From an uncultured Reyranella sp. (GTDB lineage Bacteria > Pseudomonadota > Alphaproteobacteria > Reyranellales > Reyranellaceae): 64,000 nt of DNA. A program made the translations under genes and the position numbers. This document shows positions 36,055 through 43,832 of the stretch, in pieces. Location of the stretch: contig CALDNT010000058.1 of NCBI GenBank assembly GCA_937915145.1, forward strand, positions 1 to 64,000, given 5' to 3'. The stretch's first letter is position 1. Every line of letters starts with the position of its first letter. The notes under the pieces were generated by a model, which ran no database searches, was not told the origin of the DNA, and worked only from the letters and a program-made list of their open reading frames with translations.

Positions 36055-36933
36055 TCAATCCACCGGCACCAGCGTGACCTCGACGCTGTAGGTGTGGGCG
36101 TCGCCGCCCAGGATGACGCCGCGCAACGGACTCACGTCGGAGAAGTCGCGGCCCCAGGCGACGACGACGTGGTCTTCGCGCGCCACCAGGTCGTTGGTCG
36201 GGTCAAGGTGGACCCAGCCCGCTGCCTCGCCGCACCAGACCGCCACCCAGGCATGGCTGGCGTCGGCACCGCGCAGCGCAATCTCGTCCTTGGAATGAAC
36301 GGTGCGGATGTAGCCGGACACGTAGCCGGCCGCGAGGCCGTGGGCGCGCAGGGCCGCGATCTGGACATGAGCGAAATCCTGGCAGACCCCGCTCTTGCCT
36401 TCGAAAACTTCGGCCAATGGCGTGCTGATGTCGGTGGCGCCCGGGCGGTACTCGAAGTCGGTCTTGATGCGCGTGGTCAATTCGCGGGCGGCTTCGAGGA
36501 TCGGCCGCGCTGGCGTGAACGAAACCGCGCCATAGGCCCGAAGCGCGTCTACGGTCGGCACCAGAGGCGAGTCGTGGACGAATTCGCTGGCCTGGACCGC
36601 GACCGGGAAACCGCCGCCGCTTAATTCTGCCCTCAACTCCTCCCAAGGAGGGGTCGAGGCCGCAGGCGGCGGATCGGGGAAGCGGACATCAACCGTGGCG
36701 CGAACTTCGATGTCGAAGCGCGTGTGCGGTATGGCGATACGATAGATATCGATGTGGTTGCCGAAGTGGTCGAGGTGCTGGACCGCAAGTGCTGCATCGG
36801 GACTTGTCGTGACGTCGATCGACGTGACTTTCTGTCCGGGAAACGGGCGCGCCCGCAAATGGGCGATGTGATGCGCCGAGTCGACACTGCTGACATAGCT
36901 GTAGGAAGTTCGATGCGAGAGCAGGTACTGCAT
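36055..36933 (-). CDS. Transglutaminase-like Cys protease/ligase-associated protein
   Basis: Bacterial transglutaminase-like protein of 292 residues with the beta N-terminal region (MQYLLSHRTSYSYVSSVDSAHHIAHLRARP) and a papain-like core. The triad is visible: C184 in GKSGVCQDFAH, H227 in DASHAWVAVW and D244 in VHLDPTND. Proteins of this family occur with circularly permuted ATP-grasp/alpha-E proteins in predicted peptide synthesis systems, and would cut or transfer the amide bond made by the ligase. It is the last gene of this reverse-strand set, 15 bases after the ATP-grasp gene. Confidence 0.92.
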   Translation of the reverse strand: MQYLLSHRTSYSYVSSVDSAHHIAHLRARPFPGQKVTSIDVTTSPDAALAVQHLDHFGNHIDIYRIAIPHTRFDIEVRATVDVRFPDPPPAASTPPWEELRAELSGGGFPVAVQASEFVHDSPLVPTVDALRAYGAVSFTPARPILEAARELTTRIKTDFEYRPGATDISTPLAEVFEGKSGVCQDFAHVQIAALRAHGLAAGYVSGYIRTVHSKDEIALRGADASHAWVAVWCGEAAGWVHLDPTNDLVAREDHVVVAWGRDFSDVSPLRGVILGGDAHTYSVEVTLVPVD

Positions 36934-36948
36934 GGCCGGTCGTCCCGT

Positions 36949-39447
36949 TCAGCCGCCCGAGGAGCCGACGGCCTGTGCGGCCGGCAGGTGCGAGAAGTAG
37001 GCGCGGGTGATCGCCTCGGAAAGCGCCTCCAGCTTCTCGTCGGCGTCGGCGGCGACGTCGCGCAGCATGGCGAGCGCCAATCCCTCGTGCCGCCAGGCCT
37101 TCTCGTCACCGCCGAACTGGCGGACGACGGCCGTGAGGTCGCTCTCGAGCGACGCCGGAAACGCCGGTACCGGCACGCCCGAGGCGCGGGCGAGATAATC
37201 GAGATGTCCATTGATGGCCCGGAGCTGGAAGGCAAGCGCCCGTGGATTGCTGTCGTCGAGAACGACGAGATCGAGCACCGGCGCCGGTTGGAGTTGGCCA
37301 AGGTACCGGGTGCGGTAGGTGATCGTGCTGTCGCACAATTCCAGGGCCAGGCGCATCGCGGCCTCCCAGTCGATCGGTGATTGGGTGAAGGGACTGAGGG
37401 CGCCCGTCAGGATGAACTGCGCGCGCTCGAGGCGGCGTCCAAGGTCGAGGAAGCGCCAGCCGGTACCGCGGGTCATATTTTCCTGCGCCAGGCCCGAAAG
37501 AGTGGCGACGAAGCGGACGATCTCGTCGAGGGCCGCGAGCAGGAGGTCGAGATTGCCACGCGCGGCCAGGAGCCGCTTGCGCACTTCGGTCATCTCCGGC
37601 CCGGTTGCGATGGTCATGTCGGCGGAAAAGCGGTCGCGCATGGTGCGCGCCAGGTGCTGAATGGCATCGAGCACGGTGGCAAGCCCGCGATCGTCGGAGG
37701 CGACGGCCCCCAGATCCTGCTGGAAGGCCGCACTTTCCGGCGCCGACATCGCGGCGGCGGGGTCCATCAGATTGGCTCGGTGCAGCAGGCGCCCCAGCAG
37801 GCGCAGCTCGACGGAGTCGCGAGGGCCTACGGCGCCCTGCGCCACCTTGGTGGCAGCGGTGCGCAGCAGCCGCGCGTCGTTGTCCAGCCGCTCGATGTAG
37901 CGTCCAAGCCAGTAGAGATTGTCGGCAACGCGGCTTTGCAGGTCGGCGCCGCCTCGCTCGACGGCAAGCTGGTGGAACTGCCGGGTTGGCGGCAGCTCGA
38001 CATCGGCGGCATCTTCGGTCAGCACCCAGACGTCCTTAAGGGTACCACCGAGCCGTCCGAGTGAACTCAATGCGGTGTCGCCCGCGGGCTCGCGCGCGAG
38101 GCCGCCCGGCAGCACGCGAAAACCGTCACCATCGGAAATCAGGAAGACGCGCATCACGACCGCCGCCGGCGCCAGGGCTTGGCCATCCCATTTCGGCGTG
38201 AGCGACGGCGTGAAGGGGTACTGTGCCACGAAGCGGCCGGGATGGGCGCGAATGCGGGCCTCGAGGGCCGCGCGCTCGGCGGGCTCCAGCATGCCGACGA
38301 CGATCGGCTCGCGATCGTGACCGAGGCAGGGTCGCACGATCATGGCGTCGAGGTTGGCCAGAGCGAAGGCGAGCGCCGGCGGCTCGCCCAGCCACCAGAC
38401 ATCGAGCGACGGCAGGCCAAGGGGTTCGCCAAGCAGGTCCTTGCACAACCGTTCGAGGAACGGCATCAGGGCCGGTGTTTCAACCACGCCCGATCCCAGG
38501 GCATTAGCCAGGACAACGCGGCCGCTGCGGGTCGTCTCGACCAGGCCGGTGATGCCGAGCGCCGAGTCGGCGCGAAGTTCCAGCGGATCGACGAAGGCGC
38601 TGTCGAGACGACGCAGCAGCATGTGGACGGGCCGCAGTCCCGCCAGCGTCTTGATCGATACTTCGCCGTCGCGCGTCACCAGATCGCCGCCTTCGACCAG
38701 AGGCACCCCCAGTGTGCGCGCGAGGTGGACATGGCCGAAATAGTCGGCCGACAGAGCGCCCGGCGTCAGCATCGCCATGTTGGGGCGCGCGATGTTGCCC
38801 GGCGCCAGGGCCAGCAGCGAGTCGTGCCAGCGATCGACGAAGGGCCTGACGTGGCGCACTGGAATGGAGCGGAATGCCTCGGGCAGGCTGCGCGCCAGCA
38901 CACGCCGCATTTCCAGCGCATAACCCACCCCGGCCGGGACTTCGGTGTGATCGGCCAGGACATGCCAGCGGCCATCGCCCAGGCGCACCAGGTCGACGGC
39001 GTAGTTGGTAAGGTGACGGGCTGGGGCCACGCCGTCGGTGACCCTGCAGGGCCGTAGGAAATGCCGGTTGGCATGGACCAACATCGCCGGCAGAAGCCGC
39101 TTCTTCAGCAGATCCTGCGAGCCATAGACGTCGGCCAGGATGGCATCGAGCAGGCGGGCGCGCTGGATCAGGCCGGTCTCGAGAAACGCCCATTCTTCGG
39201 GAGCGATGACGAAGGGCAGCGGGTCGAATGTCCAGCGTGGCGCGGCATGATCGTCCAGCAGGTTGACGGTCGCCCCCGACTCCTCGAGCTGCCGGCGCGC
39301 GCTTTCCACCCGCTCGCTCAGTCCGCCGGGGAGTGCGCGGATGACGCTCAGGATGCCTTGCCAGTGGTAGCGGATCGACTTCTGGCTGGTGACCAGCTCG
39401 TCGTAGGCGCTCGCCGGCGTAGTAAGGAGGCCGCGCAACGACTCCAT
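36949..39447 (-). CDS. Circularly permuted ATP-grasp / alpha-E fusion protein
   Basis: Fusion of 832 residues. About residues 1-490 are the circularly permuted type 2 ATP-grasp ligase (NLLDDHAAPRWTFDPLPFVI, VLADHTEVPAGVGYALEMRR, ITGLVETTRSGRVVLANALGSGVVETPALMPFLERL), which would use ATP to join a carboxylate to an amine. From about residue 500 the alpha-E helical domain begins (SRVADNLYWLGRYIERLDNDARLLR), with RFLDLGRRLERAQFIL. In many genomes these are two separate genes; here they are one. Neighbour-based predictions in the literature assign the system to synthesis of a peptide or peptide tag. The product is not known. Confidence 0.9.
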   Translation of the reverse strand: MESLRGLLTTPASAYDELVTSQKSIRYHWQGILSVIRALPGGLSERVESARRQLEESGATVNLLDDHAAPRWTFDPLPFVIAPEEWAFLETGLIQRARLLDAILADVYGSQDLLKKRLLPAMLVHANRHFLRPCRVTDGVAPARHLTNYAVDLVRLGDGRWHVLADHTEVPAGVGYALEMRRVLARSLPEAFRSIPVRHVRPFVDRWHDSLLALAPGNIARPNMAMLTPGALSADYFGHVHLARTLGVPLVEGGDLVTRDGEVSIKTLAGLRPVHMLLRRLDSAFVDPLELRADSALGITGLVETTRSGRVVLANALGSGVVETPALMPFLERLCKDLLGEPLGLPSLDVWWLGEPPALAFALANLDAMIVRPCLGHDREPIVVGMLEPAERAALEARIRAHPGRFVAQYPFTPSLTPKWDGQALAPAAVVMRVFLISDGDGFRVLPGGLAREPAGDTALSSLGRLGGTLKDVWVLTEDAADVELPPTRQFHQLAVERGGADLQSRVADNLYWLGRYIERLDNDARLLRTAATKVAQGAVGPRDSVELRLLGRLLHRANLMDPAAAMSAPESAAFQQDLGAVASDDRGLATVLDAIQHLARTMRDRFSADMTIATGPEMTEVRKRLLAARGNLDLLLAALDEIVRFVATLSGLAQENMTRGTGWRFLDLGRRLERAQFILTGALSPFTQSPIDWEAAMRLALELCDSTITYRTRYLGQLQPAPVLDLVVLDDSNPRALAFQLRAINGHLDYLARASGVPVPAFPASLESDLTAVVRQFGGDEKAWRHEGLALAMLRDVAADADEKLEALSEAITRAYFSHLPAAQAVGSSGG

Positions 39448-39571
39448 GGGTCCGCTGGTTATTGAAGTTGGAAGGGCCAGAATCGCACAGGGGCGTGCCG
39501 AGGTCTACCCATCGCCGCCGGCCAGCGGGTCACGCCCTCGTTCGGCAAAGGTCTGGTCATGGCCGCGCGGC

Positions 39572-40357
39572 TCATTGGAACCTTGGCTTGCGCTTTTCGA
39601 CAAACGCCCTGATGCCCTCGGCGCCATCGTCGGATACCGCGGCGCTGGCGATATCGCGGCCCTCCAGCTCCATCTGCTCCTCCAGGCCATTGCGGAGGGC
39701 GCCGAGCAGGAGCTTCTTGATGGACGAATGAGCACCACCTGGACCGGCGGCGAGCTGCGTCGCAATCGCCAGGGCCTCTTCCTGCAAGGACTCGTCGGGC
39801 ACCACGCGCGTGACGAGGCCCCAGTCGAGCGCCTCGCGAGCGGACAGCGTCCTGTTGGTGAGCATCAGCTCCTGGGTGCGCCGCAGGCCGATGAGGCGGG
39901 GCATGAAGTAAGTCGAACTCCCGTCCGGGCTGAGGCCGGTGCGGGTATAGGCCATGGTGAACTTCGCCGATTCAGCGGCCAGGACGTAGTCGCCCGTGAC
40001 CGCAAGGCTGAAGCCGGCACCGGCGGCGATCCCATTTACGGCGATCACGACGACAGCCGGCATCCGTGCAAACAGGGAGATCGCCTTGTGCAGCTCGTCG
40101 GCCAGTTCCTTGATCTTGGCGCCTGCCTGGTCGCCGAATGCGACGAACGCCTTGAGGTCGCCGCCGGCGCAGAACATCCGGCCTGTGCCGGTAAGCAGGA
40201 CGACCTTGACGCTCTTGTCGTTGTCACAGATCAGGGCCGCCTGCGCGAGTTCTCTCGCTAGGGTGAGATTGAGGGCGTTCGCGGCATCGGGCCGGTCAAG
40301 CGTGATACGCGCAACGGCGCCGTCGATGGCCAACCGAAGGCACTCAAACTGCTGCAT
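39572..40357 (-). CDS. Enoyl-CoA hydratase/isomerase family protein
   Basis: Crotonase-fold enzyme of 261 residues from the ATG at 40357, which has a GGAGGGAA site; the upstream in-frame ATG at 40414 lacks one. The oxyanion-hole regions are MFCAGGDLKAF and NGIAAGAGFSLAV. The downstream acidic residue of classical hydratases (Glu164 position) is near RTGLSPDGSSTYFMPRLIG, where Asp and Ser appear, so it may be an isomerase or a thioesterase-like relative. It interrupts the ATP-grasp and DUF2126 genes, with gaps of 124 and 115 bases on either side, so it may be a later insertion with its own promoter. Confidence 0.88.
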   Translation of the reverse strand: MQQFECLRLAIDGAVARITLDRPDAANALNLTLARELAQAALICDNDKSVKVVLLTGTGRMFCAGGDLKAFVAFGDQAGAKIKELADELHKAISLFARMPAVVVIAVNGIAAGAGFSLAVTGDYVLAAESAKFTMAYTRTGLSPDGSSTYFMPRLIGLRRTQELMLTNRTLSAREALDWGLVTRVVPDESLQEEALAIATQLAAGPGGAHSSIKKLLLGALRNGLEEQMELEGRDIASAAVSDDGAEGIRAFVEKRKPRFQ

Positions 40358-40472
40358 GCTTTCCCTCCGACAGCTCCTATATGCGTTAGTCGCAGTATCG
40401 CAATGAGTGATCAACGACGAATTGAGGAGTTGGTTCCCGTTGGGGCTGGCAACGGCCTGGGCCGGCAGGACA

Positions 40473-43400
40473 TCAGGCGCGTCGGAGGTCGAGCGTCAGG
40501 GGGTGTTCGGGATTGTCCATCTTCCGGGGCTCGGGGGCTACGCCGGGCGTATGGCCGATCGGGAAGAAACGGGCGCGACGGCGTGCCTCGGCCTCATTGG
40601 CGTTGACCGGCACGCGGTCGTAGCTGCGGCCACCGGGGTGGGCGACGTGATAGGTGCATCCCCCCAGGGATCGCCCGCTCCACAGGTCGTGGATGTCGAA
40701 GGTGAGCGGTGCGTGCACGCCGATCGTCGGGTGCAGTGCATTGGGGGGTTGCCAGGCGCGATAGCGGACGCCGGCTACGTACTGGCCGGCCGTGCCGGTG
40801 GCACGCAGCGGCAGGCGCCAACCATTGCAGGCGATCACATGACGCGCGTCGTTCAGCCCCTCGACCTTTACCTGCAGGCGTTCGACCGAGGAATCGACAT
40901 AGCGAACGGCACCGCCGCCGCCCGGCTCTTCGCCCAGCACGTGCCACGGTTCGAGTGCATGGCGCAGTTCCAGTCCGATACCGCGTTGCGCGATTTCGCC
41001 CAGCCGCGGGAAGCGGAACTCGAAGTGCGGCGCGAACCACTGCGGCTCGAAGCGGTAGCCGGCCTCGGCAAGATCGGCCAGCACCTCGCTGAAATCCTGC
41101 CACACGAAATGCGGCAGCATGAAATCGTCGTGCAGGCGCGTTCCCCAGCGGCTGAGTGGCCGCTCGTAGGGCCGGGCCCAGAATTTGGCGACGAGGCCGC
41201 GCAATAAGGCCTGCTGCGCCGCACTCATCTGCCAATGCGGCGGCATTTCGAAGGCGCGCAGTTCGAGCAGCCCGCGCCGGCCGGCGGCGCTGTCCGGCGT
41301 GAAGAGCTTGTCGATGCAGAATTCGGTGCGATGCGCGTTGCCGGTGGCATCGACCAGCAGGTTGCGGAACACCCGGTCGACCAGCCACGGCGGCGTTTGG
41401 CGGCCGGGCGCGATCTGGCGGAAGGCGATCTCCAGCTCGTGCAGTGCATCGTTGCGTGCCTCGTCGATGCGGGGATGCTGGCTGGTCGGGCCGATGAACA
41501 GACCCGAGAACAGATATGAAAGCGACGGGTGGTTGATCCAGTAACCCAGGAGACTTTTCAGCAGGTCGGGCCGGCGCAGCAGTGGAGAGTCCGGCGCCGA
41601 CGGGCCACCCAGGACGATGTGATTGCCGCCGCCGGTGCCGGTGTGACGTCCGTCGATCATGAACTTCTGCGCACCCAGCCGGGTGGCACGCGCTTCCTGG
41701 TAGACGATCTCGGTGCGCTCGACGAGTTCCGGCCAACTGGCGGCGGGATGGATATTGACCTCGATCACGCCGGGATCGGGCGTGACGCTGAAGCTCAACA
41801 GCCGCGAATCGCCGCTGGGCGGCGAATAGCCCTCGATGAACACCGGTTGGCCGAGTTCCTCGGCGGTATCCTCTACCGTCGTCACCAGTTCGAGATAGTC
41901 CTCAGTGCGCTCGACCGGCGGCATGAAAACGTACAGGTGCCCGTCGCGCGACTCGAACGACATGGCGGTACGGACGACGGCGCCGGCCGAAGTGCCGATT
42001 GCAGGATGGCCGGCGCCAGGCCGGCTGGCGAGGTCGGGTGCCAGCGCACGGCGCCAGGCTTCGCGGCGGGCGTCACCTTCACCGTTCTCCGGAGCGCTTC
42101 CACGTTCCTGGCGACGCAGCACCGGCGCACGGCGGAAGGCGTCGGGTGGTGGCAGGTCGGGATAGGCGATCATGGGGTCGGGGTCGGCGATGAAGTCGGT
42201 ATCCGCTGGCGCCGCCCAAGGCAGCGAATCGAGCGGCAGGCGGTAGCCGAGGGCGGAGTCGCCGGGGATCAGGTAGCACTTCTCCGAGCGCAGGAACCAC
42301 GGGCCGCTGCGCCAACGCCCGCGCCCCTCGCGCTTGATGGGCAGGACATATCCGGCAGCATCTTCGAGACCCTTCTCGAAAATCCGCGCCAGCCGTTCGC
42401 GCTCCAGCGGGTCCTTCACCTTGGCCGCATCGACCGCGACGTTGCTCGGCAGGCGCCGCTCGCGCCATAGGTAGTACCAGGTGTCCTCGAACGCCGGGAA
42501 GAGATAGCCGGGATTGAGTTGCAGCCGCTCGGCGACGGCGAGCGCGAAGCGTTGCGCCGCCTCGGGCGTGGCGCCGACGGGTTTGGATTCGACGGCGGTG
42601 AGATGCGGGTCGCGCCAGATTGGCTGGCCATCCTTGCGCCAGAAGCAGCCGAGCGCCCAGCGCGGCAGCTGCTCACCGGGATACCACTTGCCCTGGCCGA
42701 AATGCAGCAGCGGCTTCTTGGCGAAGCGGTCGGCGAGCTTGCGGAACAGCGCGCCCGCGAGCCGGCGTTTCTCCGGGCCCAGTGCCAGGGTGTTCCATTC
42801 GTCGCCGTCCATGTCATCGATCGAGACGAAGGTCGGTTCGCCGCCCATGGTGAGTCGGACATCGCCCTTGGCGATGTCGCGCTCGATCGTCTCGCCGACC
42901 TCGAGCAAGGTCGCCCACTGCTCGCTGCTGTAGGGCTTTGTGGTGCGCGGCGTCTCGCGCACGCGCACCACCGTCATCTCATGTTCGAAACTGACCTCGG
43001 ACTTCTCGACTCCGCCCTCGATTGGCGCCGCACTTGATGGCTCGGGCGTGCAGGCGAGCGGAATATGGCCTTCGCCCGTCAGCAGGCCCGACGTCGGGTC
43101 GAGCCCAATCCACCCAGCGCCGGGCAGATAGATTTCGCACCAGGCGTGAAGGTCGGTGAAATCACCGGTCGGGCCCTCGGGGCCGTCGAGCGGCTTCTCG
43201 TCGGGCTTGAGCTGGATCAGGTAGCCCGAAGCGAAACGCGCAGCGAAACCCAGGTGGCGCATGATGGTGACCAGCAGCCAGCCGGTGTCGCGGCACGAAC
43301 CCTTGCCCAGCGCCAGGGTTTGCTCGCAAGTCTGGACGCCCGGCTCCAGCCGCACGATGTAGCCGATCTCTTTCTGCAGCCGGGCGTTGAGGCCGACGAT

Positions 43401-43832
43401 GAAGTCGACGGTGCGCATCTTCTTGGCGTCGACCTTGGCGAGCCAGGCCTTGAGCAACGGCCCGGCCGGTTCCAGCTTGCGGAACGGCGCAATCTCTTCG
43501 GCCAGCGAGGCATCGTAGGCGAAGGGCCAGGTCTCGGCTTCGGGCTCGAGGAAGAAGTCGAAAGGGTTGATCACCGACATGTTGGCGACGAGATCGACGA
43601 CAACTTCGAACCTGTCGGTCTTGTCCTCGAATACCAGCCGGGCGAGATGGTTACCCTGCGGGTCCTGCTGCCAATTGATGAAATGCTTGGCTGGCGCCAC
43701 TTTCAGGGAATAGGATACGACGGGCGTCCGCGAATGCGGCGCCGGACGCAGCCGCACGACCTGCGGGCCCAGTGAGACGGGCCGATCGTAGCGGTAGGTC
43801 GTTCGATGATGCAGCGCGACGTGGATACTCAC
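40473..43832 (-). CDS. Transglutaminase / DUF2126 putative amidoligase fusion
   Basis: Large protein of 1119 residues. The N-terminal beta domain ([20 protein letters not shown]) and transglutaminase core carry the triad C180 ([11 protein letters not shown]), H229 ([11 protein letters not shown]) and D245 (GLDPTSGL). From about residue 310 to the end lies DUF2126, classed as a putative amidoligase of the glutamine synthetase-like fold, with landmarks [42 protein letters not shown] and [19 protein letters not shown]. It belongs with the ATP-grasp/alpha-E and small transglutaminase genes downstream. The pairing of two ligase-type and two transglutaminase-type units suggests a peptide-linked product or tag. 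Confidence 0.92.
   Translation of the reverse strand: [1119 protein letters not shown]

Follow-up and report, generated by a model that had tools for sequence, protein, structure and literature searches.

Does the gene cluster found in this stretch of Reyranella DNA build an amide bond on its own and, if so, which of its proteins would be the ligase? The window, that is the whole stretch of 64,000 nucleotides that was analysed, belongs to contig C58; the draft genome measures 4.77 Mb and is 98.4% complete. The first-pass annotation had placed two transglutaminase-like (Tgl) domains, a CP-ATP-grasp/Alpha-E fusion and a DUF2126 amidoligase at 36055-43832, and the open reading frames and Pfam matches bear this out (Table 1). 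Its three ORFs were right, but a fourth gene of the cluster, which encodes an enoyl-CoA hydratase, had been left out. The ATP-grasp/Alpha-E fusion is also real, and it is the rule in this type of cluster: the two domains, first described as often separate, are fused in essentially all complete loci of this type among about 80 relatives. The DUF2126 protein has its nearest relatives in the named-genome collection within Reyranella, with identities of up to 90%. A scan of the locus for promoters and terminators gave signals that were not above chance.

Table 1. Features of the cluster, with positions in the window; residue numbers refer to the respective protein
Feature	Position	Strand	Basis
Tgl-DUF2126 fusion, 1119 aa	40473..43832	-	Pfam (Bact_transglu_N + Transglut_core + DUF2126; DUF2126 1292 bits); triad conservation; AlphaFold model vs glutamine synthetases
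Domains of the Tgl-DUF2126 protein: N-terminal Tgl-like, residues 6-246; predicted GS-fold amidoligase, residues 276-1117			Pfam, AlphaFold
Cys180 codon, nucleophile of the Tgl domain in the DUF2126 protein (with H229, D245)	43293..43295	-	
Enoyl-CoA hydratase/isomerase, 280 aa	39572..40414	-	Pfam match; sits between the DUF2126 gene and the fusion gene
CP-ATP-grasp/Alpha-E fusion, 832 aa	36949..39447	-	Pfam (CP_ATPgrasp_2, 410 bits; Alpha-E, 193 bits); residue comparison; AlphaFold model
Domains of the fusion: CP-ATP-grasp, residues 78-452; Alpha-E, residues 503-818			
Codons A165-D166-H167 of the fusion, at the site of the E-x-N metal motif of active CP-ATP-grasps	38947..38955	-	
Stand-alone Tgl-like protein, 292 aa, C184/H227/D244	36055..36933	-	ORF; Pfam (Bact_transglu_N + Transglut_core); triad conservation

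A cluster of Tgl, CP-ATP-grasp, Alpha-E and circularly permuted GS-like ligase genes was reportedly described by Iyer and Aravind in 2008 and 2009. The window locus has the same domains, the same fusion and the same gene order, with a DUF2126 protein that carries an N-terminal Tgl domain and with CP-ATP-grasp, Alpha-E and Tgl in the conserved arrangement, and it shares the prediction of an amide ligase system. It differs in that its fused ATP-grasp is without catalytic residues, its genome is without the peptidase Anbu and a crotonase gene has been inserted. In about 80 related loci drawn from Proteobacteria, Verrucomicrobia, Planctomycetes, Acidobacteria and Myxococcota, the DUF2126, fusion and Tgl genes are consecutive in nearly every complete locus. 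The window set is an ordinary representative of this arrangement, here termed module B, within the widespread Iyer-Aravind cluster, whose predicted role is to form or edit bonds of the peptide type. The earlier link to predicted peptide-ligation clusters was therefore correct (PMC2588565, PMC6376114, PMC5666114), and a Tgl-ligase fusion of this sort had already been named, for example Rv2566 of M. tuberculosis (PMC2588565). The kind of cluster is known; the analysis adds a specific, testable revision of its presumed mode of action.

The fused CP-ATP-grasp had been taken as the ligase, an assignment at odds with the absence of residues that are invariant in active-type homologues. When 70 stand-alone and 78 fused CP-ATP-grasps were aligned (about 150 relatives), E143, N145, D302, K303 and D410 were found in every stand-alone protein and in none of the fused ones. 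D301, G356, G359, H408, S442 and S443 are retained in at most four of the 78 fused proteins, and the Gly-rich loop is gone from them. Other positions have been kept throughout (Q74, R75, D233, R258, D265, N293, R412, R430 and D450 in 78/78) or nearly so (D130 in 75/78), and the nucleotide-side lysine, Lys350, is K in 50 and R in 25 of the 78. At the metal motif the window fusion has A-D-H in place of E-x-N. The losses recur (ADR, ENP) in a fusion protein that belongs to a different phylum, encoded on an actinobacterial Tsukamurella plasmid, and the companion set of genes introduced below is intact there. The importance of such residues is indicated by the fungal ATP-grasp Cp1B, in which replacement of R139, D141, E163 or N165 by Ala abolishes or strongly cuts activity (PMC12568646); Cp1B has the same fold as the window ATP-grasp half (VIA Z 22.6). 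Gss also has E330-Y-N332 within its CP-ATP-grasp fold. A profile alignment of the stand-alone type with Gss, YgiC and YjfC sets E143-D-N145 upon E330-Y-N332, at a level that is not significant (hhalign probability 0.4%), and motif and fold together suggest that E143/N145 are equivalent to Gss E330/N332 and Cp1B E163/N165.

In spite of these losses the fold appears to have been preserved. The AlphaFold model of the fusion (pLDDT 84) is of the CP-ATP-grasp/glutathione-synthetase type, with matches to 3n6x (Z 41.4), glutathione synthetases (Z 24) and Gss (Z 20.6). The structure 3n6x (Mfla_0391, a putative glutathionylspermidine synthase) is 31% identical to the fused half, but unlike it has intact LEDN, DDK and GSGG motifs of the stand-alone type. 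Gss, YgiC and YjfC share the CP-ATP-grasp fold, and Gss is itself a Cys amidase fused to a ligase; in the window, by contrast, the putative ligase joined to the Cys domain has a predicted GS fold, and the ATP-grasp partner is without E-x-N. A fold search with the Alpha-E domain returned generic helical bundles only, all with Z below 10. The fused ATP-grasp half has evolved under purifying selection (dN/dS 0.13-0.16 against relatives). Because the catalytic residues have been lost while fold and selection have been kept, the fused CP-ATP-grasp is, judged from its sequence, probably a conserved pseudoenzyme and not a ligase. The same retention of fold and selection, together with D130 and the mostly K or R occupancy of position 350, could also be read as the mark of an active but divergent ligase with a remodelled metal and ATP site, which would make the window cluster a self-sufficient peptide ligation pathway. 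We consider this unlikely: the metal-motif E and N, K303 and D410 are absent from every fused protein and the Gly-rich loop has disappeared with them. Nevertheless, K or R at position 350 would allow for an altered mechanism, or for a nucleotide that is bound but not turned over. Since the pseudoenzyme reading would apply to all fused homologues, the cluster probably relies on another locus of the same genome.

A candidate for this second locus is present on contig C289, where genes for a CP-ATP-grasp (L006 9887-11275), a stand-alone Alpha-E protein and a Tgl protein, here termed module A, are followed by an aminotransferase gene. The two modules can be told apart by Alpha-E bit score, nearly all full-length stand-alone proteins scoring at least 249, against a maximum of 236 for the fused ones, in 192 genomes of the class. 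All 29 genomes with DUF2126 in this class sample have a stand-alone Alpha-E. Among 299 genomes of the phylum, an A-type Alpha-E (E 1e-70 or better) occurs in 91 of 92 genomes with DUF2126 as against 78 of 207 without it (Fisher 5e-28, uncorrected for kinship). In many loci (e.g. L094, L098, L125, L155-L157) the two modules lie side by side. A Hydrogenophaga type strain is one of the cultivated bacteria that carry both (L113/L114), and on the IncFII plasmid p1_120063 of Enterobacter roggenkampii they form five adjacent genes, without Anbu (L259 2171-11362). These plasmid genes lie near arsC and IS26. As co-occurrence is near-total and the modules are so often neighbours, even on a plasmid, module B has the character of an add-on to module A, and only half of a two-locus set is found in the window. 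A module B without module A is almost never seen, which also argues against a self-sufficient pathway in the window. Co-occurrence would fit a physical partnership between the modules but is no proof of one. By eye, stand-alone Alpha-E proteins (L158 4633-5577, L006 8752-9684) seem to have two copies of a GR(Y/F)LERAxNxAR-like motif, which suggests an internal duplication of Alpha-E; the fused version retains the second copy only in part.

No mention of the name DUF2126 was found in the literature searched, but the family has been assigned to the carboxylate-amine ligase superfamily, which includes PafA (PMC2588565). The AlphaFold model of the DUF2126 domain (m5a8178d4021e, pLDDT 75) adopts a predicted glutamine-synthetase fold, and all 50 VIA matches listed are glutamine synthetases or close homologues, at Z 13.9-15.7 (best 15.7) over about 260 aligned residues. 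Foldseek matches to glutamine synthetases were weak, with a best E of 0.011 and none under 0.001. The model is consistent with the published superfamily assignment and, because of its fold, the DUF2126 domain would be the likelier ligase within the window. Across 113 DUF2126 sequences no variation is seen at many acidic and basic positions, and for this reason it is likely to be a working ligase; the Glu, Asn, His and Arg residues conserved in this way include E332, E387, E667, E691, N693, H738, E837, E857 and R859.

Both Tgl domains of the window belong to the transglutaminase-like superfamily, and their Cys-His-Asp triads, described as intact from the outset, are confirmed residue by residue; C184/H227/D244 and C180/H229/D245 are conserved at 97% or more in 78 and 115 homologues, respectively. 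It is conceivable that these proteins do no more than cleave or cross-link other proteins in the ordinary way, and that the cluster serves protein turnover or the envelope, with no peptide synthesis. Rv2569c, a mycobacterial member of the YebA transglutaminase-like superfamily, has been reported to cleave proteins (PMC11081392), though its inhibition is typical of serine enzymes and not of a Cys triad. When it is considered that the Tgl genes are strictly linked to genes for a GS-fold ligase and for CP-ATP-grasp and Alpha-E, we regard such a role as improbable. A third, lone Tgl gene with intact motifs is found on contig C254 of the same genome (L002 1435-3228). It is followed by a 135-aa precursor with NGGWGNGGW repeats (TIGR04260 GrrA/OscA1, 30.7 bits against a cut-off of 31) and then by the beginning of a radical SAM maturase that resembles GrrM/OscB (TIGR04261).

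The Tgl protein of module A is altered in this genome. In its motif, GVAQDQAH, the catalytic Cys has been replaced by Ala while His and Asp are kept (L006 7928-8755). Within Reyranellaceae the cysteine is present in all four Anbu-positive genomes and lost, to Ala or Arg, in all 17 Anbu-negative genomes examined; the tree suggests two separate losses, the fork between them being weakly supported. Loss of the cysteine as a strict correlate of the loss of Anbu was considered and rejected. Outside Reyranellaceae, G031 has Tyr and G078 Pro despite having Anbu, and G003, G007 and G122 have Cys without it. As the link breaks down there, it is suggestive and serves as a lead only.

Anbu itself is missing. 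The lack of a proteasome-like peptidase in the window, pointed out at first reading, extends to the whole genome, which was searched one protein family at a time: the search elsewhere that had been proposed was carried out with an Anbu query and found none, and the sole PF00227 protein is HslV, encoded beside HslU. Anbu occurs in only four of 61 Reyranellaceae and is absent from the other 57, and its lack from this genome and from most of the family makes this a property of the lineage and not of the window. More widely, 114 of the 299 phylum genomes are positive for Anbu, 112 of these with an A-type Alpha-E, and Anbu adjoins module A in many sampled loci. The Anbu operon, for which a functional hypothesis has been reviewed (PMC6376114, PMC5666114), combines ATP-grasp, Alpha-E, Tgl and Anbu genes; it has in common with our genome the module A on C289, and differs from it in having Anbu and in the Ala that replaces the catalytic Cys of the module A Tgl here. 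A pupylation-like process has already been proposed for that operon, and in our genome it could take the form of a tag made by module A, attached by DUF2126 and later removed; the place of DUF2126 beside PafA in one ligase superfamily would suit such a scheme. However, the neighbourhoods are reported to be without a small Pup-like ORF (PMC2588565), Anbu is absent here and, among genomes with module A, whether DUF2126 is present does not depend on Anbu (p = 0.33). Tagging is to our minds the least probable of the readings weighed, and a distinctly poor prospect.

The enoyl-CoA hydratase gene is found in none of about 80 related module B loci. Among 61 Reyranellaceae a counterpart was found only in the sister species G216, at the same position, with 89% identity to the window copy and a dN/dS of about 0.18. 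The spacer between the DUF2126 and fusion genes (39448-40472) is an insertion spot in Reyranella. In L087 it holds, on the opposite strand, an ORF that resembles a D-lactate dehydrogenase, judged by reading its translation, and in L121 a 183-aa ORF; in most other loci there is a short gap or there are unrelated genes. As the hydratase gene is absent from related loci, is present otherwise only in G216 and gives way to unrelated genes in the same gap elsewhere, it is an insertion, shared with one sister species. A role for it as a conserved component of the cluster was rejected on its occurrence in these two species only, and it is probably no part of the system.

Our best explanation, to which we would give an even chance as a whole, is that the window encodes module B of a two-module amide-bond system, with a dead ATP-grasp partner, a DUF2126 ligase and Tgl amidases. 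The GS-fold domain of DUF2126 would be the ATP-dependent ligase of the locus and form an amide bond, and both Tgl proteins would be amide hydrolases or transamidases of the Cys type, which cleave or exchange that kind of bond, a pairing of ligase and amidase as in glutathionylspermidine synthetase/amidase. These two roles draw on family knowledge and conserved residues. The intact CP-ATP-grasp and Alpha-E of module A on C289 may have the dead CP-ATP-grasp/Alpha-E fusion as their partner, as a scaffold or as a substrate-binding subunit, as co-occurrence and the loss of catalytic residues suggest. In this organism, with no Anbu and with a module A Tgl that lacks its Cys, catalytic Tgl function would rest on module B. 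A more specific version, which we put forward tentatively and hold to be somewhat less probable, has module B as an obligate add-on whose dead fusion sits in a mixed complex and steers or regulates the active CP-ATP-grasp and Alpha-E of module A, with DUF2126 performing a second ligation and the Tgl proteins editing the product. On this version, the loss of the module A Tgl cysteine in Anbu-less Reyranellaceae, probably on two occasions, might have moved the hydrolase duty to module B.

Clusters of this kind are common in the phylum, DUF2126 being present in 92 and Alpha-E in 171 of the 299 sampled genomes. Should the fused ATP-grasp prove to be a pseudoenzyme and module B depend on module A, in vitro work with the fusion alone would fail and both modules would be needed together. 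Both the lost residues and the reliance of module B on module A offer direct and inexpensive ways to approach the function of these clusters.
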